In this document: positions 26,521-42,258 of the stretch, in pieces | How the letters are laid out: every line of letters starts with the position of its first letter | How positions within the stretch are numbered: the stretch's first letter is position 1 | Assembly (NCBI RefSeq): GCF_023509015.1 | Contig: NZ_CP094975.1 | Span: forward strand, 3,109,501-3,173,500 | Length of the DNA stretch: 64,000 nucleotides | Direction of reading: 5' to 3' | DNA from: Pseudomonas abieticivorans | GTDB lineage: Bacteria > Pseudomonadota > Gammaproteobacteria > Pseudomonadales > Pseudomonadaceae | Notes under the pieces: model-generated | Databases searched by the model: none | The model's input: the letters and a program-made list of their open reading frames with translations, nothing else | Told to the model about the DNA's origin: nothing | Program-made: the position numbers and the translations under genes

Positions 26521-26551
26521 CTCGTTATCCTTTTGAGGGCGGCGCCCTGGC

Positions 26552-27868
26552 TCAACGGGTGAACAGCCAACTGGCGTTGCCCAGGCTGATGATTCGTGGG
26601 AATTCACCGAGGGTGACCACGGTGCTGCAGCGCTCTTCGGTGCACTGCCACTGGCCACTGTCGGTGCGGCCACGGCCGGGGTGTTCGGTGTCGATGCTCT
26701 GTACCGGGCCTTGCACCAGGCCGTTGGATTGGATCTTGACTACCCGCGGGCGGCCTGCCGTCCAGGCCACCAGCACCTGGTCATCGCCACGGCTGAAATT
26801 GAGCAGGTAGAGGTTGTCGGCCTGCAGGCTCTTGCTGCTGTCGTAGCGGTATTCGCCAAGCGTCGGGGCGATGGCCTTGAGCACGCCGTAGGCGGGCTTT
26901 TCGCTGAGGTCGTTGCGCAGCAGGCCAAAATTGTGTTCGCGCTCTTTGGGGTCCAGGCCGTCGTTGAGCAGGTCGTACCACCACATGCCCTTGATGTTGG
27001 GCCGGGTCTTGGCCAGGAAGTAGGCGCGGGCCAGGTACATGGCCTGGGTTTTTTCGTCCACGCCGCACGGTTCGTCACTGCTTGGCCAACTCATCTCAGT
27101 GAGGTACAGCGGCACGGCACGCCCGGCCAGGGCAGTGAGGCGTTGGTCGACTTCGCCCAGCCACTTGATCCAGCTTTCCGGGGTGTTGCCGCCGCCGTTT
27201 TTTTCACAGTGCACATAGGGGTGCAGCGACAGGCCGTCGACCTTGTCCAGAGCGCCGGCTTGCACCAGGCGGTCAGCGAAGCCCTGGCGGATGCCCTGGG
27301 TGGTGATCGCACCGGCCAACACCCGGGCTTTAGGGTCGTTTTGGTGCAATTGGGCGGTGGTATCCTTGACCAATTGCACATAGTCATCGCTCAGGGAGCG
27401 CCCCTTGAACAGGGCGCGGTCGATGTCGTTCTCAAGGTCCCACTCGTTCCAGATTTCGTAGTAGTCCACCTGGCCGACGAAGGCCTTGCTGACGAAGTCC
27501 ACGTAGCGCGCGAAGCCAGCCTTGACCCCGGCGTTACGCGGTTTGGCATTGTTGTCGTAGTACTGGTTGCCCAGGCTCAGGATCATCACCTTGCTCAGGT
27601 GTCGCTTGCTGGCGCTGGCCAGCAGTTCCCGCCAGCGCGGGTAGATGCCCAACTGCCCTGGCTGGCCTTCCACGCTGGACCAGTACACGTCGTCGCGCAG
27701 CGAAGTGGCGCCGACGTCACTCAACAGGCGCATGGCGCGCGGCAGGTCGGTGTCGCGGTCCATCAGGTGGGTGCCCACGCCGACGATGAAGTGATCTTCG
27801 GCGTGTGCGGCCTGCGCCAGGGGTAACCCCAGCAGCAGCCAGGCGATGAAGTTCAACAGTCTGGGCAT
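26552..27868 (-). CDS. Secreted glycoside hydrolase (GH39/PslG-like)
   Basis: 438 residues with an N-terminal signal sequence (LLNFIAWLLLGLPLAQAAHA) and a TIM-barrel-like domain. YYEIWNEWDLEN holds the acid/base Glu in the WNE context, and YLTEMSWPSS near residue 260 a candidate nucleophile Glu. Length and layout resemble PslG of P. aeruginosa, a GH39 endoglycosidase with a role in Psl synthesis or release. Here it probably trims or edits the polymer in the periplasm. The family assignment is by recall of pattern. Confidence 0.8.
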   Translation of the reverse strand: MPRLLNFIAWLLLGLPLAQAAHAEDHFIVGVGTHLMDRDTDLPRAMRLLSDVGATSLRDDVYWSSVEGQPGQLGIYPRWRELLASASKRHLSKVMILSLGNQYYDNNAKPRNAGVKAGFARYVDFVSKAFVGQVDYYEIWNEWDLENDIDRALFKGRSLSDDYVQLVKDTTAQLHQNDPKARVLAGAITTQGIRQGFADRLVQAGALDKVDGLSLHPYVHCEKNGGGNTPESWIKWLGEVDQRLTALAGRAVPLYLTEMSWPSSDEPCGVDEKTQAMYLARAYFLAKTRPNIKGMWWYDLLNDGLDPKEREHNFGLLRNDLSEKPAYGVLKAIAPTLGEYRYDSSKSLQADNLYLLNFSRGDDQVLVAWTAGRPRVVKIQSNGLVQGPVQSIDTEHPGRGRTDSGQWQCTEERCSTVVTLGEFPRIISLGNASWLFTR

Positions 27869-27875
27869 GGGCGGT

Positions 27876-29240
27876 TCACAAGGTCTTGAACGAGGGCAGG
27901 TAAGGGTTGCGCCCATTCGGGTTGCGGCGATCCGGCGCCGGGTCATTCGGGTTGCGGTTGATTTTGCGGCGCTCTGGCATGCCGGTGCTGGGCAAGGCTT
28001 TGCGGCGCAATACATGGGCAATCGCCAGGCCGATAAACAGGTCGGCAATGGGGATTTCCAGCACGTCGGTGGTCCAGCTGACCAGGGCGATACAGAAGCA
28101 GATGCTCAACAGGGCCCGCCCCATCCAACTGGTTTTCTCGCGCAGGGCAATCAGCAGGGGCAGTTGCAGCGCGTACAGCACCACCCCGACCGCACCAAAC
28201 GCAGCCCAGAGGTACACCGCGGTGTTGTCGCACACCGCTTGCGTATCGGCGCTGTACACCGGGAACAGCAACACGCTGCTGCCGACCATGCCAAAGCCTG
28301 AGCCAAACAGGCTCCAGCCTTGCTGGTGCACGCTGTGCACCACCATCGGCCAGGTATTGATCAGCCGGTCGTACAGCGATGCCAGTGAACTGTCGCTGTA
28401 GGCGCTGGCCAGGCGCGGGTCGAAGTTCATCGTCAGGCCAATGATCGGCAAGGCCAGCCCCATGGCCACGGCGCCGAAGAACAAAGCGCGGCAGGTCATG
28501 CGCTGGCGCAGGAACGGCAGCATCAGCAGGGTGCAGATGAAGGCGGCCACCGTCGATTTGTTGGTCGAGACGTAAATCCCGACGATGGCCACGCAAAACA
28601 ACCCGGCCAACAGCAGCCGTGAACGAGTGAAGGCGGCCAGGTACAAGGCGTAGATCGCGATCAGTACCGACAGGCTGGTAGACATGCGGGTAAAGCCGGC
28701 GATACGGTCGGCGCCGCCTGCGCTCCAGGCTGTGTTGCCGCTCAACTCGGTATCGCCCAGTGTGTAGCTGTAGCCCTTCCAGGGCACTTGGGTGAACATG
28801 TCCAGGCCCGCACCCACCAGCGAGGCCACCAGGCAAAGGCCGATGATCAGACCCAATAGCCGCTTGCGGTGCTCCAGGTGCTCGCCGCACACCAGCCCGA
28901 ACAACAGCGGGCTGTACATGAACAGCGCAAAGCCGACATTGCCCAGTGAGGCGCCGTGCAGCATGGCCAACACCCCGGAAGTCAGCAGCATCAGCAGGCC
29001 CAGCCAGAAACCGCGGCTGGCCCGAAAGTGCGGCAACTCCAGGATGAACAGGGCGAAGCAGGCCGCCTTGGGCACGTACATCAGCGCCGAGGCACCGACC
29101 TGGTCCAGATAGAACCGCATGGCGCCGGAAAAAGTTTCCACCAGCACCAGGCTGATCGCCACCCAGACAATGATGGTCGACTTGTTCAGCGCCAGGGTTG
29201 CCCGGTGCTCAGAGGGACTGTACGGCAGGCTGGTTTGCAT
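27876..29240 (-). CDS. O-antigen ligase/Wzy-like polysaccharide polymerase
   Basis: 454 residues with roughly ten to twelve membrane segments and a large periplasmic loop (about residues 150-180 and again 300-340), the layout of Wzy/WaaL proteins. The weak pattern STNKSTVAAFICTLLMLP matches the family's conserved cytoplasmic-side stretch. As the only such protein in the operon it is the likely Wzy polymerase. The tail is polar with NPN and GRNP repeats. Its start overlaps the end of the next upstream gene by 32 bp. Confidence 0.82.
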   Translation of the reverse strand: MQTSLPYSPSEHRATLALNKSTIIVWVAISLVLVETFSGAMRFYLDQVGASALMYVPKAACFALFILELPHFRASRGFWLGLLMLLTSGVLAMLHGASLGNVGFALFMYSPLLFGLVCGEHLEHRKRLLGLIIGLCLVASLVGAGLDMFTQVPWKGYSYTLGDTELSGNTAWSAGGADRIAGFTRMSTSLSVLIAIYALYLAAFTRSRLLLAGLFCVAIVGIYVSTNKSTVAAFICTLLMLPFLRQRMTCRALFFGAVAMGLALPIIGLTMNFDPRLASAYSDSSLASLYDRLINTWPMVVHSVHQQGWSLFGSGFGMVGSSVLLFPVYSADTQAVCDNTAVYLWAAFGAVGVVLYALQLPLLIALREKTSWMGRALLSICFCIALVSWTTDVLEIPIADLFIGLAIAHVLRRKALPSTGMPERRKINRNPNDPAPDRRNPNGRNPYLPSFKTL

Positions 29241-30453
29241 GATGAGCGCTTCTATTCAGGAGGACTTGGGCAAACAGTTGCTGGTAGCGGTCGAGCATCA
29301 GTTCCTGGTCCAGCAAGTGCGCCACGCTGGCCCGTGCCTGGCTGGCCAGCTTGCGGCGTAGCTCCGGTTGGCGGGCCATGCGCAACATGGCCAGGGCCAG
29401 CGAGTCCGGCTCCTCGGAGTCGCATAGCAGGCCGTTGACGCCCTCGCGGATGATTTCTGGCAGGCCACCGCGGTTGCTGGCAATCACCGGCACCGAGTGG
29501 GCGCAGGCTTCCACCGCCACCAAGCCGAAAGGCTCGCTCCACACCGAAGGCACGATGGCCACGTCGATCTGGCGGTAAAAGCTTTCCGGTGATTGATGGC
29601 CAACGAAGTGGATGTTTTCCGAGTCGGCCAGTTGCTTGATTTCCCGCTCGAAGTCCGGCTGGCCGCGCCCGGCGATCTGCAGCGTGGCGTTGAATGGCAA
29701 GCGCTTGAACTGCTCGATCAGCCAGCGCAGGCCCTTGTGCTCCGACAACGTGCCCAGGTAGCCAAAGCGCAGCGGCTCGCTGTGCACCAGGCGCCCCTGG
29801 GGGTAGACCAACGGCACCTCGTCGACTTTCGGGCTGCTGTTGTAGATGACTTCGGTGGTGGCGTTGCGGAAAAACTGCGCGTCGCGAAACTTGTCCACCA
29901 TGAACTGGCTGACCCCCACCACCGCGTCGATTTGCGCCGAGCGTTCGGCGTGGCCCTGGCGCAAGGTTTTGCACAGGGTGCAGGGGCCATTGCAGCTGCC
30001 GCTTTTCTTGAACATGCTGCCACCGGGGCACATCAGGTACAGGTCGTGCAGCACCTGCACGATGGGCAAGCCGGCCTTGGTGATTTCGTCCCACACCGCC
30101 ACCGACCAGCCGCTGAGGTTGTGGCACACCACCAGGTCGACGCTTTCCTGGGCCAGCACCTGGCGCACGAAGGCGCGCATGCCCGCGTTGTAGCGATCAC
30201 GCAGGTGCCAGCCCAGCCGGGCCAGGGCATTGGGCCGCTGTTCGGTGAAATGCCAGTAGGTGTTGAGCACGCCGGCGCGGTACACCTTCACACCCTTGAC
30301 CATGTCCTGGTGTAGCCCAGGCTCGGCGCCAGTGGTCAGCACGGTGACGTTCAGGCCGCGTTGTTGTAACCCTTCGACCGTGCGTTGCAGCACGATTTCA
30401 GCTCCGCCGCCGATGTTGGGCGAGTACAGGCTGTTAAGGAACAGGATGTTCAT
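29209..30453 (-). CDS. Glycosyltransferase family 4
   Basis: 414 residues from ATG 30453 (MNILFLNSLYSPNIGGGAEIVLQ), which overlaps the preceding gene's stop (ATGA). Glycogen-synthase-type GT-B fold with GYLGTLSEHKGLRWLIEQF, LQIAGRGQPD and EPFGLVAVEACAH. A Cys-rich insert near residue 150 (CPGGSMFKKSGSCNGPCTLCKTL) is shared with a subset of GT4 enzymes and may bind metal. Third GT4 of the operon. Confidence 0.9.
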   Translation of the reverse strand: MNILFLNSLYSPNIGGGAEIVLQRTVEGLQQRGLNVTVLTTGAEPGLHQDMVKGVKVYRAGVLNTYWHFTEQRPNALARLGWHLRDRYNAGMRAFVRQVLAQESVDLVVCHNLSGWSVAVWDEITKAGLPIVQVLHDLYLMCPGGSMFKKSGSCNGPCTLCKTLRQGHAERSAQIDAVVGVSQFMVDKFRDAQFFRNATTEVIYNSSPKVDEVPLVYPQGRLVHSEPLRFGYLGTLSEHKGLRWLIEQFKRLPFNATLQIAGRGQPDFEREIKQLADSENIHFVGHQSPESFYRQIDVAIVPSVWSEPFGLVAVEACAHSVPVIASNRGGLPEIIREGVNGLLCDSEEPDSLALAMLRMARQPELRRKLASQARASVAHLLDQELMLDRYQQLFAQVLLNRSAHHANQPAVQSL

Positions 30454-31451
30454 AGGGGATACGACTTGTGCAGGCCAAGGCGTCCGGATTCCCCGTCGCT
30501 GATGGCTTGTTCGATAATGCCCAGGCGCCTGCCCGAGCCGCTTCGCTTCGCCACCTGGCGCAGCAGGAACAGGAACAACGTCCGGTTCAGTGCATACAGC
30601 CACGTGGAGCCGGCCCACACGTGCTTGTCGAACCAGGCCTGGTTGCGCGCGGTGTAGTAGGCGCGCATGTCCGAATTGCCAAGCAGGAAGCACTCGTAAA
30701 TGTTGTTGGTGCGGGCCTTGATGTTCCAGGAGTCTTCCAGGTCATCGAGCAGGGCATCGGTTACCAGAAATATCTGCCCGCCGGCGGCGGTGATGCGCCG
30801 GGTGTATTCGGTGTCGTCGGCGTACAGCACCAGCTCGCCCAGGGGCAGGCCGATTTTTTCGTAGACGCTGCGGTGGGCCAGTAGGCCGCCATAGGTGGCG
30901 AATGGCACCGGCATCAGGGCCGGTTTTTTTGCACTCGAATGCGGCTTGCCCCACGGCAGGCGGCGCCACACTTTGTACGGCAGCTGTGCGATGTGAAAGC
31001 CGAAGCAACTGGAGCGCGGTTGTGTGGCAAAGCGTTCGGGTACGCCGGCGGCGACATCGGCCTGATGGGTCGGGCGGAAACCCACCACGGCGGTCTGGTC
31101 GCGGCCCAGCTTTTGCTCGCATTCGCGCAGGCGCCGGTGCAGGGTTTCCACGGCGCCCAGGGTCGGCGCGTTGTCGTCGTCCATCAACCAGATGTATTCG
31201 GCACCGCGGCGCAGCGCAGCCTCGATACCCACCGCATAGCCATTGGCGGAGCCGGTGTTGCTGGGCAGGTCGATCAGCTCGATCTGGCCCGGCCAGCGCC
31301 GTGGCAAGGCGTTGAGGTCGGCGCTGGAGGCGTTGCTGACAACGATCACCCGTTCGATCTGCGAACAGGCCAGGGAGCGATTGATCAGGGCTTGCAAGTA
31401 ATGCAAGCGGTCACCGTATGTCAGGGTAACCAGTGTGGTCTTGGCAGTCAT
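30450..31451 (-). CDS. Glycosyltransferase family 2
   Basis: 333 residues, GT-A fold: TLVTLTYGDRLHYLQALI at the N-terminus, NTGSANGYAVGIEAAL and the metal-binding DDD motif in YIWLMDDDNAP. Sequence style resembles rhamnosyl/galactofuranosyl transferases of the GlfT group, which is only a guess at the substrate. Overlaps the next gene by 4 bp (ATGA) and lies 35 bp downstream of the antiterminator gene. Confidence 0.9.
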   Translation of the reverse strand: MTAKTTLVTLTYGDRLHYLQALINRSLACSQIERVIVVSNASSADLNALPRRWPGQIELIDLPSNTGSANGYAVGIEAALRRGAEYIWLMDDDNAPTLGAVETLHRRLRECEQKLGRDQTAVVGFRPTHQADVAAGVPERFATQPRSSCFGFHIAQLPYKVWRRLPWGKPHSSAKKPALMPVPFATYGGLLAHRSVYEKIGLPLGELVLYADDTEYTRRITAAGGQIFLVTDALLDDLEDSWNIKARTNNIYECFLLGNSDMRAYYTARNQAWFDKHVWAGSTWLYALNRTLFLFLLRQVAKRSGSGRRLGIIEQAISDGESGRLGLHKSYPL

Positions 31452-31486: not shown

Positions 31487-31999
31487 TCAGCAGGCCTGCA
31501 CGGCCAAGTGCGACAGGCTGCTCTTGGGCAGGCTGACGCGTTGTTCGCGTTGCAACAGGTTGAGCAGGATCACCGCGCGCTCTTCGCCGTCGTCACTGAG
31601 GAAGATGGCCTGGATGTCGCTGCTGCCGGTGCGTACCAGAACCGTTTCGCCCTGGGCGAACGGTTGCGGCGCGGGCGACACGGCCAGGCGTTGGCGAATC
31701 TGCAGAATCAGCGCGTCCTGCACGGGGCAAGGCTGTGCGCCGAACGACACGATGCGCGCCACGCCACGGGTGGAGCGAATCGGGTACCAGCTGTCGCTGA
31801 TGGCCAGGCGGATGAACAGGTAGCCGGGGAACAGCTCTTCTTCGACGCCACGGCGGTTTTTGGGTAGCTCCGCAGGCTGGCTTTTCAAGGGGCGATAGCA
31901 CTGGAATTGTTGGCGCAGCAAGTGCTCTTCGGCGCGGGCTTCCTGGCGCGGCTTGGTCTGGATCAGGTACCAGTTTGCGGTGTCGGTGAAGTGGCTCAT
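31487..31999 (-). CDS. RfaH-type specialised NusG paralogue (transcription antiterminator)
   Basis: 170 residues with an N-terminal NGN domain (NWYLIQTKPRQEARAEEHLLRQ, LFPGYLFIRL, RSTRGVARIVSFG) and a C-terminal KOW-type domain (QAIFLSDDGEERAVILLNLL). The pattern TRGV, then FG, then QAIF..DGE.R..LLNL, follows RfaH rather than housekeeping NusG. RfaH-type proteins join RNA polymerase at ops elements and suppress pausing and Rho termination in long surface-polysaccharide operons. Two ops-like elements lie in this operon's leader (39181-39192, 39249-39260), so it probably acts on its own operon. The ATG at 31999 gives the family start. Confidence 0.9.
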   Translation of the reverse strand: MSHFTDTANWYLIQTKPRQEARAEEHLLRQQFQCYRPLKSQPAELPKNRRGVEEELFPGYLFIRLAISDSWYPIRSTRGVARIVSFGAQPCPVQDALILQIRQRLAVSPAPQPFAQGETVLVRTGSSDIQAIFLSDDGEERAVILLNLLQREQRVSLPKSSLSHLAVQAC

Positions 32000-32067
32000 G
32001 GGCGTATCTCGGCTATCTGGTTCGCCGGCCATTGGAGTGGCCGGCGAGAGCGGTAAGGAGCTGATTG

Positions 32068-34278
32068 TTATTTTTTGCTCGGGGTGTAGTCGTACGCCGC
32101 GCAGTCGTAGTCAGCGGTGGAAGCCTTGCGGATCACCCCGTTGAAAATCGCGCCTTTGACCAGCACGCCGTTCTGCGCGAGGCGGCGCTTGGCGCCTTCC
32201 ACTTCCTTGACCGAGCTTTTGCCAAAGCGCGCCACCAACAGCGTGGTGCCGGCTTGGCGGCCGACCAGTGCGGCATCGGTCACGGCCATGATGGGCGGGG
32301 TGTCGATGATCACCAGGTCGTACTGCGGAGACAGCTCGCGCAACAGCTTGTTGAAGTTGTCGTGCATCAGCAGTTCGGACGGGTTGGGCGCCGCGAAGCC
32401 GCAGGAAATGAAGTGCAGGTTGTCGATCACCGTGGCGTTGATCACTTCCTTGTTGCTCAGCCGTGCAGCCAAGGCGTCGGACAGGCCGTGGCGCGGTTGC
32501 AGGCCGATCACTTTGTGCAGGTAGCCCTTGCGCATGTCGGCATCGATCAGCAGGACCTTCTTGCCAGTCTGGGCGATGATCACCGCCAGGTTGCTGCTCA
32601 CGAATGACTTGCCGACACCGGCCGTGGGGCTGGAGATCATCAGCACATTGTTACGCGACTCGAGCATGGCGAAGTGCAGGCTGGTGCGCAGGCTGCGCAG
32701 CGACTCGACGGCAAGTTCGGTGGGTTCGGCAATGCTCAGCAGTTTCGAATCGGCAGAACCGGTGCGGCTGCCACGGCCCTTGCTCAAACGCTCCTGTTGC
32801 TTGGACAGCGGCACCGAGGCGTACACCGGCATGCCCAGGTTTTCGATGATTTCCGGGTTGACGATGCCGCGGTCGAAGGCCTGGCGAATAAACACCACGG
32901 CCACTGCCACCAGTGCGCCCAACAGCAGGGAGATCAGCACGATCAGCTTGCGCATCGGCTTGACCGGTTCTTCGATGTTGGCGTCGGCCTTGTCGATGAT
33001 GCGCACGTTGCCGATGTTGCCGGCGCGGATGATGTCCTGCTCCTGGCTTTTGTTCAGCAACTGGGTGTAGGTCTGGTTGGTGACTTGCATGTCACGGGTC
33101 AGGCGCAGCAGTTCCTGTTGGGTTTCCGGCAGGGCCTTGATCTTGCCCTGCATGGCGTTTTTCTGTGCTTCAAGCTGGCCGATCTGCGTGCTCAGGGCTT
33201 GCGAGGCAGGGTGGGCACGGGTGTACAGGCGGTCCATGTCGGTACGTTTCAGGCGCAGGTCATTGATCATCGAGTCGATGTTCACGGTCTGGTCGAGCAG
33301 GGCCTTGGTTTCCAGGCTGATGTCCACCGACTTGCTGCGCCGTTGGTAGTTGTTCAGCGCGTCTTCGCTGGCTTCCAGTTGTTTGCGCACGATCGGCAGT
33401 TGCGAGCGCAGGAACTCCAGGCGCTGGGCGGCTTCAGCCGAGCTGCGGTCGATGTTCTGGCGCAGGTACAGGCGGCTGATGTCGTTGAGGATCAGGTTGG
33501 CCCGCAGCGGGTCCTGGTCTTCCAGGCTCATGTAGACGATGCCCGAATCCTTGCCGGCCTCGGCCAGTTTGAGGAGGGTCTGGTAGTTCAACGAGGTGGT
33601 CAGCACGCGGTTTTTGGTCAGCTGGAACTCGGTGCCGGGGCGGGCATCGAGCGTCGCCAGTTGTATTTGCACGCCTTTGTTGTCGCTCAATTGGCCAACC
33701 TGGCCATCCAGCAGCCAGCCGCCATCGGGGTCGAACACTTTGTAGTGACCGTCTTCGCCGGCCACCAGCTTGAGCTTCAGGCCCAGCAATTCGTCGGGCA
33801 CGCTCAGGCTGAACACCTCGAGGTTTTCCCCGCCCCAGGCGTAGCTGTCCAGGCCCAGGGGGGCTTCGTTCAACGGCTGGCCGGCGTCCGGTTTGAAATG
33901 GCGCGCCACGTAGGCACCGATGGCCGGGAAGTAGTTGGGTTTGGTGACGATATCCAGCTTGAGGTCCGTGACCACTTGGCCAAGCACGGCACGGGACTTG
34001 ATCAATTCGATCTCGGCGGTGGCCAGCGACACCGAGGTCGGCTGCTTGCCGGTTTCCGGGGTGGCGTCCAGGCCGACCTTGCGCGGCTCGATCTGGATCA
34101 TCACGTTGGCCTGGTAGACCGGCGCGGCCAGCAGGGCGTAGGCAAGCCCCACCACGCTGAAGACGCCGACGATCGAGGCAATCATCGCCTTGTGGTCGAA
34201 CAGGGTGCGCAGGACGGTTGCCAGGTCTACCTGAGAATCCTGGTAGTACTCCAGTGAAGAGCGGGTCATTGCAGTCAT
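32068..34278 (-). CDS. Wzc-like polysaccharide co-polymerase with BY-kinase domain
   Basis: 736 residues. N-terminal Wzz domain with membrane segments near residues 32-52 and 445-465 flanking a coiled-coil-rich periplasmic part and a GNVRIIDKA/VKPMRKL segment. The C-terminal tyrosine-kinase domain has Walker A SSPTAGVGKSF (K557), Walker A' VLLIDADMRKG and a short tyrosine tail (Y724, Y729, Y731). It controls chain length and export with the Wza-like lipoprotein, cycling by autophosphorylation and dephosphorylation. The 4-bp overlap with the phosphatase gene upstream fits that pairing. Confidence 0.94.
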   Translation of the reverse strand: MTAMTRSSLEYYQDSQVDLATVLRTLFDHKAMIASIVGVFSVVGLAYALLAAPVYQANVMIQIEPRKVGLDATPETGKQPTSVSLATAEIELIKSRAVLGQVVTDLKLDIVTKPNYFPAIGAYVARHFKPDAGQPLNEAPLGLDSYAWGGENLEVFSLSVPDELLGLKLKLVAGEDGHYKVFDPDGGWLLDGQVGQLSDNKGVQIQLATLDARPGTEFQLTKNRVLTTSLNYQTLLKLAEAGKDSGIVYMSLEDQDPLRANLILNDISRLYLRQNIDRSSAEAAQRLEFLRSQLPIVRKQLEASEDALNNYQRRSKSVDISLETKALLDQTVNIDSMINDLRLKRTDMDRLYTRAHPASQALSTQIGQLEAQKNAMQGKIKALPETQQELLRLTRDMQVTNQTYTQLLNKSQEQDIIRAGNIGNVRIIDKADANIEEPVKPMRKLIVLISLLLGALVAVAVVFIRQAFDRGIVNPEIIENLGMPVYASVPLSKQQERLSKGRGSRTGSADSKLLSIAEPTELAVESLRSLRTSLHFAMLESRNNVLMISSPTAGVGKSFVSSNLAVIIAQTGKKVLLIDADMRKGYLHKVIGLQPRHGLSDALAARLSNKEVINATVIDNLHFISCGFAAPNPSELLMHDNFNKLLRELSPQYDLVIIDTPPIMAVTDAALVGRQAGTTLLVARFGKSSVKEVEGAKRRLAQNGVLVKGAIFNGVIRKASTADYDCAAYDYTPSKK

Positions 34279-34727
34279 TTTTGTTGATCCTCCTGACTCA
34301 GATGTGGCAACCAGTCATCGACACAGCGCGCCAGTTGGGCGTAGGTCTGTTGAAAGGCGTTCTTCGGACGGCGAAAGGGGTCGGCGATCGGCAGGTCGTT
34401 CTGCCATTTGCCGATCAGAAACACCTTGCCTCGCACTTCAGGGGCAAGTTCGACCACGCGTTTCAACTGCTGCTGTTCCATCAACAAGACCAGGTCGGCC
34501 CAATGCAGCATGTCGCGAGTGACCTGGCAGGCGCGGTGCTCGCCGCTCTTGATCTTGAAGTCCTTGAGCACCGCCTTGGCCATGGGGTCCATGTAGGCGC
34601 CGCTGCTGGCTTGCACACCGGCCGAGGTCACCTGGACGCACCCATTGCTGCGGTGGCGCAGCAGGGCGGCGGCCATGGGGCTGCGGCAGATGTTGCCCAC
34701 GCAGATAATCAGCACCTTGTTGAGCAT
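34275..34727 (-). CDS. Low-molecular-weight protein-tyrosine phosphatase (Wzb-like)
   Basis: 150 residues starting at ATG 34727. The P-loop is C9-VGNIC-R15-S16 and the general-acid Asp lies in PIADPF near residue 125, both as in LMW-PTP. Expected to dephosphorylate the tyrosine tail of the Wzc-like kinase encoded next, allowing its ring to reassemble. Overlaps that gene by 4 bp. Confidence 0.93.
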   Translation of the reverse strand: MLNKVLIICVGNICRSPMAAALLRHRSNGCVQVTSAGVQASSGAYMDPMAKAVLKDFKIKSGEHRACQVTRDMLHWADLVLLMEQQQLKRVVELAPEVRGKVFLIGKWQNDLPIADPFRRPKNAFQQTYAQLARCVDDWLPHLSQEDQQK

Positions 34728-34732
34728 TGCGC

Positions 34733-35662
34733 CTACCCCCGGGAAACCGACGCGCTGAGGCGACGCAGCAGGTTGGCGGCGATGTTGCGGCCCATCTGCG
34801 CCAGCGCCGTGAGTTTCTGCCACGGTGAAATGGCCGACAGCGACAGGCAGAACACCTGCACCAGGCAATGCTCGTACAGCGCCTGGTTGCCGATGCGGAA
34901 GTAGTAATTGGCCAGGCTGGAATAGGTGTGCAGGGTCATCTGCAACTTCTTCTTGTCCGAGCGCATGGAGAACACCCCGCCCAAGTGCACCCGGTACGCC
35001 GCAGGCTGGATGTCAGCCAGGTATTTGCCCTTGCCGTAGGCACCCAGCAAAGCCCACCACACCAAGTCGTTGAGTGGTGCGCGTACAAGCTCCAGTGGCA
35101 GTTCGTGCAGCACGTTGCGAAAGCATACGGTGAGCGTCGAGATCGGCCGGCCGCGCATCAGCTCCAAGCTGCTGGCGTCGCGCTGGCCTTCGCCGACCAG
35201 TTGGATGCCCTTGGGGCCTTCGCTGTCGAACGCCATGGCGTCGTGGTAGGTGATTACGTAGTCGTGGTGGGCCTCCAGGAAGTCCACCTGCTTTTGCAGT
35301 TTCAGCGGGTCGGTCCAGAAATCGTCGCCCTCGCAGAAAGCCAAATATTTGCCGCTGCCTTTGCGAAACAGATCGGGGCAGGGGTGGTTGCCTTTCTGGT
35401 ACTGGTTCACCGGCTGCAGGATCGGCTTGATGATGTTCGGGTAGCGCCGGCCGTAGTCGGCGACGATAGCTGCGGTACCGTCGGTGGAGGCGTCGTCGTT
35501 GACCAGCACTTCAAAAGGGAAGGTGGTTTCCTGGGCCAGGAAGCTGTCCAGGGTCTGGGCGATGTAGCCTTCGTGGTTGTAAGTGGGGCAGGCGATGGAC
35601 AGCAGCGGTTCGCGTGACGACCCCCAGGCTTGCATGATCTCGCTCTCGGTTCTGCTGCTCAT
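34733..35662 (-). CDS. Glycosyltransferase family 2
   Basis: 309 residues with a GT-A nucleotide-binding domain: LLSIACPTYNHEGYIAQTLDSFLAQ, VLVNDDASTDGTAAIV and the acidic motif CEGDDFWTDP. Resembles inverting transferases of capsule and O-antigen clusters. Overlaps the flippase gene's stop by 4 bp and precedes the phosphatase gene by 5 bp. Acceptor and donor unknown. Confidence 0.9.
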   Translation of the reverse strand: MSSRTESEIMQAWGSSREPLLSIACPTYNHEGYIAQTLDSFLAQETTFPFEVLVNDDASTDGTAAIVADYGRRYPNIIKPILQPVNQYQKGNHPCPDLFRKGSGKYLAFCEGDDFWTDPLKLQKQVDFLEAHHDYVITYHDAMAFDSEGPKGIQLVGEGQRDASSLELMRGRPISTLTVCFRNVLHELPLELVRAPLNDLVWWALLGAYGKGKYLADIQPAAYRVHLGGVFSMRSDKKKLQMTLHTYSSLANYYFRIGNQALYEHCLVQVFCLSLSAISPWQKLTALAQMGRNIAANLLRRLSASVSRG

Positions 35663-37176
35663 CGTTGGGCGCTCGGTTTAGTCAGTAGAAAGAGGATTTT
35701 TTGCACCAGCGGTTTGTCGCTGCCGGCCACCAGCACCAGCACGATGACCCCGGCAAGGGCCAGGCCGAACAGGGTTTGCAGGCGCCCGGGGCCGGTGAAC
35801 AGTTGCACCAGCGGCAGGGTCAGCAGCACGCCGACGGCGGTCATGAGGGTGATGCGCAGCATGTCGTGCAGCCATTGGCCGTGGATGCCAGGGGCCAGGC
35901 GCTGGTGAATCATTTGTGGCCAGATGGCAAAGGACACCAGGCGCAGCAGGAACCAGGCGACGGCGGCGCCCATCGCGCCTTGGTAATGCACCGCGGCCAC
36001 CAGCACGGGTACGGTGATCAGGGCCGACACCACGCTGAACCAAACGTGCAAGCGCATCCGCCCATGGGCGTACTGCAGGTAGAACTGAAAACCGTTGGCT
36101 GCCAGGATCGCTGCGCCCAGGGCGTACCAGAGCATCAGCGGTGCAGCCCAATCGGCAGCGTGTTGGTCACCGCTCCAGGCGAAGATCAGCGGGCCGCCGT
36201 GCACGGCGATCATCGCGCCCAGCGGGAACAGCAACGTGCAGATAAAACGGTTGGCACCCAAGTACAGCTGTTGCATGTCGCCTTCACGGCCTTCGGCCAT
36301 CAGTGCGGTCATGCGTGGCAGCAAGGTCTGCACCAGCGGGTTGACCAAGGTGACGATGCCGGTGCTGATCATGGCCACCAGGGAGAAGTAGCCGTATTCC
36401 TTAAGCGTCAGGCTCGATGACAACAGCACCTTGTCCAGTTGAGTCAGCACGATCCACAGGATCGAGGTGCCCGACAGGCTCAGGGCAAAGGGCAGCACCG
36501 GTTTGACCAGCGCGCTGTTGAAGCCACTGAACCAGTGCGGCGCGGGCAGGCGGGCGTACGCCTTGGCGGCGAACAACAAGGTTTCGATCAGCGTGACCGC
36601 CAGTTGGAACTGGAAAAACACCAGCGCGTCCTTGGACACCCAGGCCACCAATGCCAGCCCACCGAAATAGCGCAGGGTGGCGATCAGCACGTTGGCAGCA
36701 TTGAGCCAGGCGTGCATCTCAAGCCCTTGCAGGCCGCTCTTGTACAAGGTGCTGTAGAGCCGCAGCGCCACCATCGGGCCCATCAGCGCCACGCAGGCGA
36801 CCAACGTGCCGTGGCCCAGCGATTGGGCGTTGAGCCAGTGCCCGGCAATCCAGGGGCTGACCAGGTACACGGCAATACAGCAGAGCACTGCCAGCGGCAG
36901 GAACACGATCTCGAACGAGCGCAGCAACCAGCCGCTGATGCGTTGCACATCGCCGGCACTTTGCTGATGAGCAATCTGGCGCACCAAGGACGGCGACATG
37001 CCGGCGTCGAGCAACATCAACCAGGCTTGCAGCACGGCGAAGAAGCCAATCAGGCCGTACACCTCGGCACCCAGGTGGCCCAGGTAGAACGGCATGATCA
37101 GGATCCCGACCAGCACCGAATAGGCCTGGCCCAGGTAGCTGAGCGTGGTGTTGTGCACCACCGAGAGCTTTTTCAT
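35659..37176 (-). CDS. Wzx-type polysaccharide flippase (MATE/MOP superfamily)
   Basis: 505 residues with about twelve to fourteen membrane segments and the RfbX-like start LSYLGQAYSVLVGILIMPFYLGHLGAEVYGLIGF. It would move the lipid-linked repeat unit to the periplasmic face for polymerisation by the Wzy-like protein. ATG 37176 is taken; a GTG one codon earlier is possible. Begins 4 bp after the aminotransferase stop. Confidence 0.92.
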   Translation of the reverse strand: MKKLSVVHNTTLSYLGQAYSVLVGILIMPFYLGHLGAEVYGLIGFFAVLQAWLMLLDAGMSPSLVRQIAHQQSAGDVQRISGWLLRSFEIVFLPLAVLCCIAVYLVSPWIAGHWLNAQSLGHGTLVACVALMGPMVALRLYSTLYKSGLQGLEMHAWLNAANVLIATLRYFGGLALVAWVSKDALVFFQFQLAVTLIETLLFAAKAYARLPAPHWFSGFNSALVKPVLPFALSLSGTSILWIVLTQLDKVLLSSSLTLKEYGYFSLVAMISTGIVTLVNPLVQTLLPRMTALMAEGREGDMQQLYLGANRFICTLLFPLGAMIAVHGGPLIFAWSGDQHAADWAAPLMLWYALGAAILAANGFQFYLQYAHGRMRLHVWFSVVSALITVPVLVAAVHYQGAMGAAVAWFLLRLVSFAIWPQMIHQRLAPGIHGQWLHDMLRITLMTAVGVLLTLPLVQLFTGPGRLQTLFGLALAGVIVLVLVAGSDKPLVQKILFLLTKPSAQR

Positions 37177-37180
37177 CACA

Positions 37181-38284
37181 TCAGCCTACGCAGGCCAGGG
37201 TGGCGCTTTTTTCGCCCTGGCCCAGCAAGGTGTCGATGATCTGGTCCTGGGTTTCGCGCTCCAGGCCCGGGTAGATCGGCAGGCACAGGATGCGTTGGCT
37301 CAGGTAGCGCGATTGCGGTTGCGCGGCCTGGGGTTGCAGGTAGTCCAGGGTGTCCAGCGAAGGGTAGAAGTAGCGGCGCGGGTTGATGCCTTTTTCCTGC
37401 AGGGCATTGCGCATGGCCAGGGCCTGGGTTTCGTCCGCCAGGCCTACCGGGAAGTAGCTGTAGTTGATCTGGCTGTCGTCCTGCACCTTCTGCAAGTCGA
37501 AATAGCCGTTCAGGCGCTGCTCGTAGTAGTGGCCCTGCTCGCTGCGCTGCTCCAGGATGGTGTCGATCTCATCGAGCACGCACAGGCCCATGGCGGCCGA
37601 GAACTCGTTCATCTTGGCGTTGGTGCCCAGGCCTTCGATGCGGTCTACCCCGGTGATGCCGAAATTGCACAGCAGGCGAATTTCCCGGGCCAGGTCGTCA
37701 TCGTTGGTGATGATCGCGCCGCCTTCGATGGTATGGAACAGCTTGGTGGCGTGGAAACTCAGGGTACTTGCATCGCCCCAGTTGAACACCGACTGGCCGG
37801 CATGGCGTACGCCAAAGGCATGGGCGCCGTCGTACACCACTTTCAAGCCGCGGCGCTTGGCGATTTCATCTATACGCTCCACGGCACACGGGTTGCCGAA
37901 CACGTGGGTGGCGACGATGGCACTGGTGTCCGAACCGATGCGCGATTCGATCTGCGCCGGGTCGATGTCCCAGGTGGCAGGGTCGATGTCGGCGAAAATC
38001 GGCCGGATGCCTTCCCATTGCAAAGTACTGCTGGTGGCGACGAAGCTGAAAGGCGTGGTGACGGCGCTGCCACTCAGGCCCAGGGCCCGGTAGGCCACTT
38101 GCAAGGCCAGCGTGCCGTTGTTGGTGAGGATCAGGTTGCGTACGCCCAGGTAGTCTTTGAGCCGTGCTTCCAGCTCACAACTCAACGGGCCGTGGTTGGT
38201 CATCCAGTGCGAGGCGTAGATAACGTCCACATAGGCTTTGAACTTGTTGATATTGCCCAGGTAGGACTTGGTCACGTTGATCAT
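37181..38284 (-). CDS. DegT/DnrJ/EryC1/StrS sugar aminotransferase
   Basis: 367 residues. The PLP lysine is K181 in FHATKLFHTIEGG, with YDGAHAFG upstream and the NHGPLSCELEARL start typical of sugar-nucleotide aminotransferases. The family makes amino-deoxy sugars such as 4-amino-4,6-dideoxyhexoses (VioA/FdtB-like), so the polymer may contain an amino sugar. No matching dehydratase is in the operon, hence the keto-sugar nucleotide must come from elsewhere. Second gene of the operon. Confidence 0.92.
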   Translation of the reverse strand: MINVTKSYLGNINKFKAYVDVIYASHWMTNHGPLSCELEARLKDYLGVRNLILTNNGTLALQVAYRALGLSGSAVTTPFSFVATSSTLQWEGIRPIFADIDPATWDIDPAQIESRIGSDTSAIVATHVFGNPCAVERIDEIAKRRGLKVVYDGAHAFGVRHAGQSVFNWGDASTLSFHATKLFHTIEGGAIITNDDDLAREIRLLCNFGITGVDRIEGLGTNAKMNEFSAAMGLCVLDEIDTILEQRSEQGHYYEQRLNGYFDLQKVQDDSQINYSYFPVGLADETQALAMRNALQEKGINPRRYFYPSLDTLDYLQPQAAQPQSRYLSQRILCLPIYPGLERETQDQIIDTLLGQGEKSATLACVG

Positions 38285-38330
38285 GAGGAACTCCCTGTGG
38301 AGGCCAAAAGGTGTGCAAATAAAACTGCGT

Positions 38331-39101
38331 TCAGGACGCCGTGGTATTGGAGTTGGCCATGGCTTTGCGGGCGCGATACTGGTTGAGCTTCAATATCCAC
38401 CGCGTGGCCAGGCTGCCGGTATGCGGGTCGCCATAGTGAAATAATGCCGTGGCCCGCCTGAACGCTGGATCGCACGCCTGGTTGGCATGTAAGGAGCGGT
38501 AACCCCAAAAGAAATAAACATTGCCGGGCACTACCCGCAGGGTGATCGGCTTTAATAAGTTGCGGTGGATGCCCCAGCAAATAACTTTGCGCACAAGTTT
38601 GTTCTGAAAGAACATTTTCTCGATAATGTTAGTCAGTACGTTAGTTCGCATTTTGCGCAAGTTGGGAAACAGGATCAGGTCGCCACGATCCTTGCCCTGG
38701 TGGGGGGTGTAGATAGGGATGAGCATGGTCAACAGCGTGGCATCGTAATGGAAGCTGTTGGATTCCTTGCGCCCGGTGCCGCCTTGCACGCACCGCAGCA
38801 CAGGGAAGATTTCATCGCTACTGGCGTCGTGGCCGCAGCCCAGGCGGTGCATGTGGCCCATCAACGCCTTGAACTCCGCGGACTTGCCCAGCGTAGCCAA
38901 GGCGCTGTCGGCCAGGGCTGGGTAACCGTGGTAGGCGAAGTATTGGTTATTGTGCTTGGCCGCCTGGCGCTCGACATAAGCACGCAGGTCCTTGAGGGCT
39001 TCGGCGGTCAGGGCATGTTCCAGAGTGGCAAAGCCTTGGCGGTCCATATCGGTGACCAGGCGTGCAGACGTCGCTTCATCAATAGAGATCAAGTGAGACA
39101 T
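38331..39101 (-). CDS. PhyH-like Fe(II)/2-oxoglutarate oxygenase, first gene of the exopolysaccharide operon
   Basis: 256 residues, soluble. A candidate metal triad is H118-Y-D120 (FHYDATLL) with distal H205 (SLHANQA), followed by an Arg in FRRATALFHYGD that could bind 2-oxoglutarate, the order seen in phytanoyl-CoA dioxygenase-like enzymes. Substrate unknown; hydroxylation of a sugar, an acyl group or a small molecule linked to the polymer is possible. Starts at ATG 39101 downstream of the ops-like leader and precedes the aminotransferase by 46 bp. Confidence 0.65.
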   Translation of the reverse strand: MSHLISIDEATSARLVTDMDRQGFATLEHALTAEALKDLRAYVERQAAKHNNQYFAYHGYPALADSALATLGKSAEFKALMGHMHRLGCGHDASSDEIFPVLRCVQGGTGRKESNSFHYDATLLTMLIPIYTPHQGKDRGDLILFPNLRKMRTNVLTNIIEKMFFQNKLVRKVICWGIHRNLLKPITLRVVPGNVYFFWGYRSLHANQACDPAFRRATALFHYGDPHTGSLATRWILKLNQYRARKAMANSNTTAS

Positions 39102-39180
39102 GGCGGCTAACTCGTTGCGTCATAAGTGCATGTGGTGTCGTGGCCGACACCCTGTATTGTTATTTGTTTTATCGCTGGGC

Positions 39181-39192
39181 AAAGCTACCGCC
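39181..39192 (-). promoter_or_regulatory. ops-like element, proximal copy
   Basis: On the minus strand the sequence reads GGCGGTAGCTTT, compared with the known E. coli ops GGCGGTAGCGTG (10 of 12 bases). The core GCGGTAGC that forms the non-template hairpin is intact. It lies 80 bp before the first gene of an operon that encodes an RfaH-type protein. Confidence 0.65.
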
Positions 39193-39248
39193 GGGTCCGC
39201 ACGGGGCGGTCCATTAAACAAAGCCAGGTGCACACTTTTTCTAGAGTC

Positions 39249-39260
39249 AAAGCTACCGCA
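39249..39260 (-). promoter_or_regulatory. ops-like element, distal copy
   Basis: On the minus strand TGCGGTAGCTTT. It shares the 12-base word GCGGTAGCTTTG exactly with the proximal copy 68 bp downstream. Enterobacterial JUMPstart leaders also carry a doubled GGTAGC. Confidence 0.6.
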
Positions 39261-39437
39261 CACCCGCAAAAATCCAGGAGGTGGTCAATAACTTGAAAAG
39301 CCCATACTGGCCCGGTTAAAAAAATCGGGCATGCAAAAGTAAGTGTCGGCAGATAATTATTCAGGTATGTCAAAACTTCGTTGCATTGGTGCTCTACGGC
39401 ACTCAGTTACCAGCAACTTTTTGGCGGCCGGTGAGAG

Positions 39438-39467
39438 ATATATCGACCCTCTTGTGGAAGCTGTCAA
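39438..39467 (-). promoter_or_regulatory. Candidate promoter of the exopolysaccharide operon
   Basis: On the minus strand TTGACA (39467 to 39462) is followed after 18 bp by ATATAT (39443 to 39438). A start here would give a leader of about 330 nt containing both ops-like elements. The -10 box is approximate; other starts in this AT-rich region are possible. Confidence 0.35.
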
Positions 39468-39713: not shown

Positions 39714-39742
39714 AAAAAATGAAAGCCCTCACAAAGAGGGCT
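39714..39742 (-). terminator. Terminator after davA
   Basis: AGCCCTC (39724-39730), loop ACAAA, GAGGGCT (39736-39742). On the minus strand the stem is followed by TTCATTTTTTT. It closes the davBA transcript and separates it from the exopolysaccharide leader. Confidence 0.85.
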
Positions 39743-39778: not shown

Positions 39779-40564
39779 TTACTCATAAAAGTCGGGCCTA
39801 CGATCCTGCAGGTATGGCGTTGCTCGCCTTGAGGTTGCCAAGGCCACGGGGTCCAGGGTCGCCAGCAGCAAGCCTTGCGCCGTTGCGGTTTGACTGGCCC
39901 AGCTACCCTGCGGGCCGGCTACGCTGCTGAGCCCGCAATAGTGAATGTCGCCCTCGGCCCCTGCGTAATTGGCGTATGCCACGTAGCATTGGTTCTCGTA
40001 GGCGCGGCTACGCATGGTGATTTGGGCGACGAATTCATACGGCGTCATATTGGCGGTGGGTACGACGATCAGGTCGGCCCCAGCCAGGGCCAGTTGGCGA
40101 GCGCTTTCCGGGAATTCGAGGTCGTAGCAGATCAGCAGGCCGATGCGCCAACCGCCCAGCTCCACCACGGGGCTGGCAGCCTGGCCGGGGCTGAACATGG
40201 CATGGTCGAGTTCGCCAAACAAGTGGGTTTTGCGGTAATTGGCCAGGCGCTGCCCGCGGGCGTCAATTATTTGCGCTGCGTTGTACAGGCCGCCCTCGGG
40301 GCCCCGTTCGGGGTAGCCATAAATGATGGCCAAATCGTTGGCTCGGGCCAACTGGGCAACGTACCGGGCGCTTTCGCCATCGGCAGGTTCAGCCAGGCGG
40401 CTGGCCGCCTCATGACCAATGTTGTAGCCGCTGAGGAACATCTCCGGGAACACCAGCAGGTCCACCCCCTGGCTGGCAGCCTGATGCGCGGCGTGGGCCA
40501 TGCGTTGCAGGTTGCCGCCAACGTCCAGCGGCAGCGGTGCACATTGATACAGGGCGATTAGCAT
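39779..40564 (-). CDS. davA: 5-aminovaleramide amidohydrolase DavA (nitrilase superfamily)
   Basis: 261 residues with the nitrilase triad E41 (FPEMF), K112 (YRKTHLF) and C146 (LLICYDLEFPE). Next to davB, it is the expected amidase converting 5-aminovaleramide to 5-aminovalerate in lysine breakdown. It starts 11 bp behind davB. Similarity to KT2440 DavA as I recall it is clear but not complete, so the name leans partly on context. Confidence 0.88.
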   Translation of the reverse strand: MLIALYQCAPLPLDVGGNLQRMAHAAHQAASQGVDLLVFPEMFLSGYNIGHEAASRLAEPADGESARYVAQLARANDLAIIYGYPERGPEGGLYNAAQIIDARGQRLANYRKTHLFGELDHAMFSPGQAASPVVELGGWRIGLLICYDLEFPESARQLALAGADLIVVPTANMTPYEFVAQITMRSRAYENQCYVAYANYAGAEGDIHYCGLSSVAGPQGSWASQTATAQGLLLATLDPVALATSRRATPYLQDRRPDFYE

Positions 40565-40575
40565 GAGCGTGCTCC

Positions 40576-42258
40576 TTATTCCGGCAAAGCGATCGGGCCG
40601 ATCTCGTGGAATACGTCGCCGGGCCCTGGGTTCTCGGCAGCGCAATGCCCACCGAAGTGCTTCATGATCCCCCACACGGCATTCAGCGATGTCTGCACGG
40701 CGCCCTCGACCCAGGCGGGGGTCCAGGAAACGTCGTCACCGGCAATGAAAATGCCGCGCTGGTCGTCAGGCATGTCCTGCTGCATGAAGTGCGCGTACAT
40801 GCGCTGGTTGTAGCGGTAGTGGCCGGGCAGGGCGCCTTTGAATGCGCCGAGGAAGTGCGGGTCGGCCTCCCAGGACACGGTGATAGGGTCGCCGATGATG
40901 CGGCTGGCGATGTCCACGTTCGGATAGATTTTTTTCAAGGCATCCAGGGCCAGTTTTACCCGCTTTTCCACCGGGTGCGGAAGCATCTTCAGGGCATCGC
41001 TCATCCACGAGTAGGACAGGCAGATCACCCCTGGCTTGTCGTCGCCGTTATCGAACAGGTAGGTGCCGCGGGTCAGGCGATCGGTGAGGGTCATGCTCAT
41101 CAGGTCGCGGCCGGTTTCCGGGTCTTTGTCTTTCCAGAAGGGCCGGTCGACCATCACGAAGGTCTTCGATGATTGCATGTAGCGCGTGCGGTCCAGCGCC
41201 ATCCACATCTTCTGCGAAAACAGCGACTCCTCGCATTCGATCTGGGTGGTCAGCAGCCAGCTCTGGCAGGTGGTGAGCACGGCGGCATAGTGGCGGGTAT
41301 CGCCCCAGTTATCGGTGACGGCAAACTGGCCGTCGGCGGCGCGGGCGATCTTTTTCACCCCGGCCCGCGGTGCGCCATGGTGCAGCGAGGCCAGGCTGGT
41401 GCCTGCCGGCCAGTGCGCGCAGCGCTCAGGCACATGCCGCCAGATGCCCAGCGGCACCTGCTCGACACCGCCAACCACGAGGTGCTGATGGTCGTCGCAG
41501 TTGGTCATCACCACCCGGAAAATTTCCAGCATCGAGTTGGGGAAGTCCGAATCCCAGCCGCCGGTGCCAAAACCGACCTGGCCAAACACCTCGCGGTGGT
41601 GGAAGGACAGCTTGGCAAACGCCTTGGACGTGGCGACGAAGTCATAGAAGGTGCGGTCGTCCCACAGCGGTACCAGTTTGTTCCACAGCTCCTTGAGGCG
41701 CGGCACATCGCGGTCGCGAATCGCCTGCTGGATATCACCGAACTGCGAACCGGCCTCCAGGGCATCGGCCCAGGCGTCGGCCACTTCCTGAAACAGCGCG
41801 GGCAAGTCAGCGATTGATTGCGCGTAGTGAGTCTGGCCTTCCAGGTCGATCACCGTGCTGCCAGACGCGGCCGTCAGTGGGTTGGGGAATGGTTTGGTAT
41901 CAAGGCCCAGTTTGTCGACGTAATGGTAGAACGCCGTGGACGACACCGGGAAGCGCATGCCGCCCAGTTCCGCGACGATGCCCTCGGCACCGTTGAACGC
42001 TTGCGAGCGCAGCCGCCCCCCCATCTTCGAGGCTTCATACACCACCGGCTTGAGGCCCAGCTTCATCAGCTCGTAGGCCGCCACCAGCCCGGCGATACCC
42101 GCGCCCACGATCGCAACTTCGGCACCATGGTTCTCTGCAGGAATGCTGCCCAGGCCCGCCGGGTGTTCGATCCAGTCGTCAAACGCGAACGGGAAGTCTG
42201 GCCCGAAGATGGTGATCGGTTTCTTGCCGTCGGCAGGGTGGCGATTGGGCTGGGTCAT
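40576..42258 (-). CDS. davB: Lysine 2-monooxygenase DavB (flavin amine oxidase family)
   Basis: 560 residues. The FAD motif GAGIAG lies at 52-57, with a conserved VYEASKMGGRLRSQAF stretch and a C-terminal FIAGDDVSWTPAWVEGAVQTSLNA. It oxidatively decarboxylates L-lysine to 5-aminovaleramide. Length and sequence match KT2440 DavB (PP_0383) closely from memory; older annotations call it tryptophan 2-monooxygenase. The ATG at 42258 is the family start (MTQPNRHPADGKKP). Confidence 0.93.
   Translation of the reverse strand: MTQPNRHPADGKKPITIFGPDFPFAFDDWIEHPAGLGSIPAENHGAEVAIVGAGIAGLVAAYELMKLGLKPVVYEASKMGGRLRSQAFNGAEGIVAELGGMRFPVSSTAFYHYVDKLGLDTKPFPNPLTAASGSTVIDLEGQTHYAQSIADLPALFQEVADAWADALEAGSQFGDIQQAIRDRDVPRLKELWNKLVPLWDDRTFYDFVATSKAFAKLSFHHREVFGQVGFGTGGWDSDFPNSMLEIFRVVMTNCDDHQHLVVGGVEQVPLGIWRHVPERCAHWPAGTSLASLHHGAPRAGVKKIARAADGQFAVTDNWGDTRHYAAVLTTCQSWLLTTQIECEESLFSQKMWMALDRTRYMQSSKTFVMVDRPFWKDKDPETGRDLMSMTLTDRLTRGTYLFDNGDDKPGVICLSYSWMSDALKMLPHPVEKRVKLALDALKKIYPNVDIASRIIGDPITVSWEADPHFLGAFKGALPGHYRYNQRMYAHFMQQDMPDDQRGIFIAGDDVSWTPAWVEGAVQTSLNAVWGIMKHFGGHCAAENPGPGDVFHEIGPIALPE

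Follow-up and report, generated by a model that had tools for sequence, protein, structure and literature searches.

In Escherichia coli, rfaH is a single cistron whose product acts in trans (PMC7593976), and all validated ops targets there carry TG at positions 11 and 12 of the element (PMC5995543). Other NusG paralogues are encoded beside or within long operons: UpxY of Bacteroides is encoded within the capsule operon that it activates (PMC7593976; PMC7819879), the excerpts of both sources giving no recruitment element for it, and LoaP, which promotes readthrough of hairpin terminators (PMC7819879), lies beside long biosynthetic operons. RfaH-domain genes have also been placed inside exopolysaccharide loci, as with EPS273-M of P. 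stutzeri 273, for which direct activation of transcription was proposed (PMC5532660), and the RfaHs of Shewanella CL7 (PMC7593976); no leader element or ops site appears in the excerpted accounts of either. An rfaH gene beside the lipopolysaccharide genes of Azotobacter is likewise described in the literature. How operon-encoded NusG paralogues find their targets was called unknown in 2020 (PMC7593976), and a 2026 preprint splits the RfaHs into those acting in trans and dependent on ops and those acting in cis and independent of it (PMC13015549). Here we analyse a stretch of 64,000 nucleotides of the Pseudomonas abieticivorans genome (NZ_CP094975.1, positions 3,109,501 to 3,173,500; hereafter the window), in which an RfaH-family gene is the seventh of 15 genes of a probable exopolysaccharide operon whose leader carries two ops-like elements. 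The source genome is a single contig of 6.7 Mb.

The locus resembles the E. coli RfaH/ops (JUMPstart) system in the TIGR01955 score and DNA-contact residues of its protein, in the GCGGTAGC core of its sites, in the long polysaccharide operons concerned and, in most Pseudomonas relatives, in a hairpin directly before the core. It differs in that rfaH sits, as gene 7, within the operon that it probably targets, in that the leader has two sites whereas those of E. coli waaQ, rfbB and wza have one each, and in that the TG often comes one base later. Its place within the operon recalls UpxY, and its proximity to a long biosynthetic operon recalls LoaP, but the protein scores only 48.6 against the UpxY model NF033644 (cut-off 100) and 34.5 bits against the LoaP model NF033641 (cut-off 125). 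It shares an in-operon position with EPS273-M and the Shewanella RfaHs, and with the putative monomorphic RfaHs of the preprint it shares that position and a beta C-terminal domain (CTD) in AlphaFold models, at low confidence here; those proteins are proposed to be ops-independent, whereas the Pseudomonas clade keeps doubled ops-like sites. In the open-licence literature searched we found no description of tandem ops elements or of an ops element in Pseudomonas. The original prediction, made from the window's letters, had named such an arrangement as not known to be described for Pseudomonas exopolysaccharides; an RfaH-domain gene was already on record in the P. stutzeri locus (PMC5532660), where the excerpt gives no ops site.

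We consider it likely that RfaH made from gene 7 loads at the two leader GCGGTAGC elements on paused RNA polymerase and keeps that polymerase processive through the 17.6 kb of the operon. By analogy with E. coli RfaH, RNA polymerase would pause where TG follows each core, the core on the non-template strand would fold into a small C3:G8 hairpin, and RfaH would read G5 and T6, bind, and exclude NusG and Rho. From the layout we further infer positive feedback: with rfaH 7.2 kb downstream, the first RfaH would come from the few transcripts escaping Rho and would then load on later polymerases, and the second site would give another chance to polymerases that had failed at the first. Antitermination would probably be directed against Rho, since the terminator scan listed no intrinsic terminator on the operon strand between the sites and gene 1. 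The leader contains the following features, in order of transcription.

39439 to 39467, minus strand: putative promoter, TTGACA-N17-GATATA (pattern match)
39261 to 39283, minus strand: weak hairpin, 5 bp with a 13-nt loop, one base before ops copy 1 (stem search)
39248 to 39259, minus strand: ops-like copy 1, GCGGTAGCTTTG, core-NN-TG register, preceded by T (conserved among relatives)
39194 to 39212, minus strand: interrupted hairpin, 4+2 bp, two bases before ops copy 2 (energy fold)
39180 to 39192, minus strand: ops-like copy 2, GGCGGTAGCTTTG, which holds GCGGTAGCTTTG at 39191-39180, core-NN-TG register (conserved among relatives)

The core GCGGTAGC lies on the minus strand at 39184-39191 and 39252-39259. 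Both copies retain ops bases 2-9, including C3-G8, those that RfaH reads; the tail is TTTG in each, so that the TG is displaced downstream by one base relative to E. coli ops and the canonical TG at positions 11-12 is absent. Two exact leader copies had been predicted, both keeping the ops core: the copies are there (39259-39248 and 39191-39180), one base lower than first given, and the core is intact in each, but neither copy is a canonical ops. The hairpins before the cores went unmentioned in that prediction, and the register of the TG varies among relatives. The 24 nt before the core fold at -4.9 kcal/mol for copy 1, against a set mean of -5.97, and at -7.5 kcal/mol for copy 2, against -5.45. 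The TTGACA-N17-GATATA block was not among the matches of a consensus promoter scan; among orthologous leaders the words CGATATAT and TTTGACAG recur at 40 and 28 of 77 loci, respectively. The bare core count in the window is not significant (5 against 2.59 expected, with 5 reached in 12 of 100 shuffles), and the three further cores, at 48580-49025, all lie within one open reading frame (ORF) of 401 aa. The significance of the sites derives from their conservation across relatives and not from their count in the window.

That conservation was followed in two collections. A genus sample of 298 Pseudomonas genomes contains an RfaH-like gene (E 1e-8) in 108 genomes, at 118 places, one of them in the window. 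The orthologous set holds 91 loci, 59 of them added from named genomes (P. syringae, P. viridiflava, P. graminis, P. petrae, P. caspiana, P. nitroreducens, Stutzerimonas and others); these reduce to 79 distinct loci, and to 77 once L157 and L173 are excluded for short upstream DNA. An operon-leader core is present at 76 of the 77, as a pair at 66 and singly at 10, and is missing only at L059. Within 400 nt before the first gene, as defined by tblastn, GCGGTAGC occurs at 68 of the 77 loci and is both the commonest 8-mer of the leaders and their commonest duplicated 8-mer (58/77); at 8 further loci the pair lies about 2 kb farther upstream, before another ORF. The added loci with enough upstream DNA all have at least one core (57/57) and mostly two (53/57), the upstream DNA being too short at 2 of the 59. 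Throughout the closest clade (the window, L032-L062 and L262), L059 excepted, the cores directly precede the first gene of the operon; this holds also for the shrunken operon of L035 and for the operons that have no gene 1 (L053, L054, L057, L061). Three genomes have a gene-1 homologue (44-47% identity) with no other operon genes beside it and no core in the preceding 320 nt; G001 and G147 are without RfaH, and G164 has a distant one.

A scan for the core followed by TG covered 117 of the 118 RfaH places (at the omitted place, G114:C24, a TTTG-type core precedes rfaH by 325 nt). Such a site outside ORFs was found at 95 of the 117, whereas 60 scrambled cores gave 1.5 loci on average and never more than 8; the 22 counted as without a match include some, such as L032, L034 and L035, that do have leader sites, removed by the ORF or the tail filter. 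Absence of the core from orthologous leaders would have refuted the original prediction, which had also proposed a search for enrichment; it was not refuted, with the core in 76 of 77 leaders and core plus TG at 95 of 117 RfaH loci. At the level of sequence, these comparisons support the view that Pseudomonas and Stutzerimonas conserve an RfaH encoded by its own operon together with two ops-like sites in the leader.

The gene 7 product reaches 167.5 bits against TIGR01955 (cut-off 144.5), as expected of the RfaH-type NusG paralogue first proposed, and falls short of a second RfaH model, NF006534 (112.8 against 124 bits); elsewhere in the genome there is a single weak RfaH match (5.8e-4), which we take to be NusG. 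When the E. coli residues that contact ops (K10, R16, H20, R23 and R73; PMC5995543) were mapped onto it, all five proved to be retained in the window protein. Class assignment covered 116 RfaH proteins, of which 14 fall outside classes I-IV. Class I is one clade of 33 proteins (support 0.80) with strong synteny, and its members in the genus sample retain the five residues in 32, 33, 32, 33 and 33 cases, respectively.

The 66 pairs are spaced 56-121 nt apart and differ in the distance from core to TG. At site 1 the tail is core-NN-TG in 56, core-N-TG in 9 and another form in 1; at site 2 the corresponding numbers are 26, 36 and 4. By pair, NN-TG precedes N-TG in 27, NN-TG occurs twice in 25 and N-TG twice in 9, another tail is involved in 5, and the order N-TG then NN-TG is found in none of the 66. 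In the folding-energy profile both sites show a sharp local minimum immediately upstream of the core; a further minimum, slightly deeper, extends over the core and its flanks, and another lies about 52 nt before site 1. Stems were counted in 30 leaders, drawn from the 66 as mutually diverged outside the cores and restricted to loci with two exact cores: stems of at least 6 bp abut the core at 20 (site 1) and 16 (site 2) of the 30, against a background of 0.112, and stems of at least 5 bp at 22 and 22, against 0.259. Their sequences vary (GGATC/GATTC, GAAGC/GCTTC, ATCGAC/GTCGAT and others). The waaQ, rfbB and wza leaders of E. coli each have one core with an N-TG tail and a 5-7 bp stem ending 0-2 nt before it, and we count this hairpin-then-core anatomy in favour of ops-type loading. 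The Rfam JUMPstart motif has the same order, a stem-loop and then GGGCGGUAGCGUG, as do most Pseudomonas relatives with a hairpin directly before the core; set against that layout, the window has a weak stem at copy 1, an interrupted one at copy 2 and the tail TTTG. Membership of the Rfam family was rejected: none of 18 genomes (17 with RfaH, 1 without) reaches the RF01707 gathering score of 35 bits, the best scoring 27.2, while 1 of 14 control genomes exceeds it, and the window leader gives no RF01707 match at E values up to 10. By eye, the stretch from promoter to copy 1 in class I leaders contains more conserved-looking hairpins, for example near GCC-AGAGC and CTGCCCA..TGGGCAG.

A possible elaboration, which we regard as doubtful, is that the two sites are unequal, with a promoter-proximal core-NN-TG and a gene-proximal core-N-TG, each behind its own RNA hairpin, and would together act as a dock for loading in two ordered steps, rendering the self-encoded RfaH circuit switch-like. 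We found no description of a circuit of this type for any NusG paralogue in the open-licence literature searched.

The operon comprises 15 minus-strand ORFs in the ORF list of the window, spanning 39101-21528 (17.6 kb), which agrees with the extent first proposed; that they form one transcript we infer from their arrangement. Judging by the encoded protein types (aminotransferase, flippase, glycosyltransferases, Wzb, Wzc, WcaJ and Wza), the set looks like an exopolysaccharide pathway, and gene 1 and the probable polymerase, gene 10, have no Pfam match.

38331 to 39101, minus strand: gene 1, 256 aa, labelled PhyH by eye only
37181 to 38284, minus strand: gene 2, DegT/DnrJ/EryC1 aminotransferase (PF01041)
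35659 to 37179, minus strand: gene 3, Wzx-type flippase (PF01943)
34733 to 35662, minus strand: gene 4, GT2 glycosyltransferase (PF00535)
34275 to 34757, minus strand: gene 5, Wzb-type phosphatase (PF01451; below the Wzb equivalog cut-off)
32068 to 34278, minus strand: gene 6, Wzc-type tyrosine kinase (WZC_N, GNVR, Wzz; TIGR01007 above cut-off)
31487 to 31999, minus strand: gene 7, RfaH-family NusG paralogue, 170 aa
30450 to 31451, minus strand: gene 8, GT2 glycosyltransferase (Pfam)
29209 to 30456, minus strand: gene 9, GT4 glycosyltransferase (Pfam)
27876 to 29240, minus strand: gene 10, 454 aa, probably Wzy polymerase (position and appearance)
26552 to 27865, minus strand: gene 11, 437 aa, no confident family
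25408 to 26523, minus strand: gene 12, GT4 glycosyltransferase
24125 to 25333, minus strand: gene 13, GT4 glycosyltransferase
22663 to 24063, minus strand: gene 14, WcaJ-type undecaprenyl-phosphate glucose phosphotransferase (TIGR03023, 553.1 bits, cut-off 410.75)
21528 to 22607, minus strand: gene 15, Wza-type export protein
39724 to 39742, minus strand: terminator-like hairpin and T run after the upstream gene (39779-40675), parting it from the operon (consensus match only)

The terminator scan found two matches of this type, against a shuffle mean of 1.1. A 9-bp inverted repeat without a T run, at 32023-32046 between wzc and rfaH, may form a hairpin upstream of rfaH with a role in processing or attenuation.

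Elsewhere in the genus, RfaH genes and cores are arranged differently. Class II is one clade of 28 proteins (support 0.97) in which a TTTG-type core lies 181-341 nt upstream, in rfaH's own leader, a layout that would make direct autoregulation possible; in one example, L127, genes for a porin-like protein, Poly_export and Wzz follow rfaH. The class II loci are L112, L114, L116, L117, L119-L131, L263-L268, L270-L274 and L289. Classes III and IV are not single clades. In class III (26 proteins) the core, nearly always GCGGTAGCGTG, comes after rfaH, with polysaccharide genes following in the examples checked, and in class IV (15) it lies on the opposite strand, in most loci beyond a divergent wzb-wzc pair.

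Sites away from rfaH were sought with SGGGCGGTAGCGTG, which is present in 69 of the 108 genomes with RfaH and 37 of the 190 without; across the genus the motif thereby follows the presence of RfaH. The RfaH-bearing genomes have 22 such unlinked sites, 11 of them intergenic (a count in which L214 is reclassified as lying under a 2,334-nt ORF and another site, over which the largest ORF is 267 nt, is taken as intergenic). Of 20 sites in genomes without RfaH, drawn from every one of the 15 genomes that have the GGGG form and supplemented by 5 selected CGGG sites, 3 are intergenic. Six intergenic sites in RfaH-bearing genomes have 6-7 bp stems at the core; they fall in five loci (L217, L218, L220, L221 and L230) of four genomes, of which only G050 belongs to class I. 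Nearby downstream genes encode a flippase (L217), a GGDEF-EAL protein (L221), a UDP-GlcNAc epimerase (L230), a Wzy_C-like protein below the Pfam cut-off (L220) and, by eye, an epimerase (L218). This suggests that the five loci hold trans targets and, given such ops-like leaders in a few RfaH-bearing relatives, that RfaH likely acts in trans too in some species. A wide regulon in the window's own genome was rejected: GCGGTAGCNTTG has 8 matches (6 for the reversed control), the 6 besides the leader pair all lying under ORFs, one of only 279 nt, and GGCGGTAGCNTG has 10 (control 6), 9 of them under ORFs of at least 471 nt. The tenth (L213:13330; G000:C1:4439327-4439338, minus strand) is GGCGGTAGCGTG, behind a 7-bp stem and about 27 nt before a VgrG-type gene that belongs to an hcp-vgrG-PAAR/RHS unit. 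It is a candidate second RfaH target; a 411-base search around it found 3 of 115 genomes including itself, the other two partially, and no full-length counterpart.

Three other explanations of the doubled cores have to be weighed. The cores might serve only to pause polymerase, while a non-autoinhibited (monomorphic) RfaH loads in cis, co-translationally or along the operon, without ops. The preprint ties in-operon rfaH genes to ops-independent proteins with a predicted beta CTD (PMC13015549), and AlphaFold2, run on 48 sequences, modelled the CTD here as beta strands or a barrel, at low confidence (mean pLDDT 66.7, block pLDDT 46-70). The bases retained in the leader, however, include the RfaH contacts at core positions 3-8, which are dispensable for the pause in E. 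coli (PMC5995543), and the domain-interface positions E48, R138 and F130, all kept in the window protein, are retained in 30, 33 and 33 of the 33 class I proteins. This last argument is weak, because the preprint has E48 and R138 conserved in both of the classes that it draws (PMC13015549); overall we judge ops-free loading improbable. The strong synteny of class I raises another prospect, that the leader was carried along by linkage alone, its cores serving another factor or a plain regulatory pause. This we hold to be very unlikely: cores adjoin RfaH in several differing gene arrangements, and the six unlinked sites in RfaH-bearing genomes have 6-7 bp stems, while the best of the 3 intergenic sites in genomes without RfaH has 5 bp. 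We give the least credence to recruitment by the abutting RNA hairpin, as for an RNA-binding antiterminator, with the core a spacer or pause signal. Most cores are indeed abutted by a hairpin whose sequence varies with pairing retained, but it is short or missing at some sites where the 8-nt core is invariant (in loci with two exact cores), and the RfaH of E. coli has been crystallised with a single strand of ops, 9 nt long, in the absence of RNA (PMC5995543).

Several observations nevertheless weigh against loading of RfaH at the leader cores. Position 12 of the ops element is T instead of G in both window copies; in E. coli, G12C abolished the U11 pause, yet RfaH recruitment persisted (PMC5995543). 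A search of the window leader for perfect stems found a single weak one, at copy 1, and nothing at copy 2. L059 retains rfaH and the operon with no leader core, the sole such class I relative among the 77, and its RfaH may be losing its site. In 6 added loci one or both sites lie within an upstream-extended ORF of 888-948 nt on the same strand, which we read as gene 1 with too early a start. The conservation counts are not independent, because the leaders share ancestry. As a genus marker the bare pair GCGGTAGC-N81-111-GCGGTAGC was rejected, since it matches 102 of 298 genomes, coding repeats included, and the reversed control is commoner. Among 48 aligned protein sequences, which take in Stutzerimonas and P. 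nitroreducens relatives, 13 have N in place of H20 and 5 have Q in place of E48. If the beta CTD is correct, the protein would not be autoinhibited and would depend less on ops. A chance look-alike of the core recurs in the window's genome at G000:C1:452139-452760, a tandem repeat of about 102 nt whose copies begin GCGGTAGCCAG.

On loading of the gene 7 product at its own doubled leader sites, the Pseudomonas clade fits neither class of the preprint, being cis-encoded yet equipped with conserved doubled ops-like sites. It would offer a natural, testable self-loading circuit, ops variants in which the pause TG has moved by one base, and several RfaH/ops layouts within a single genus.

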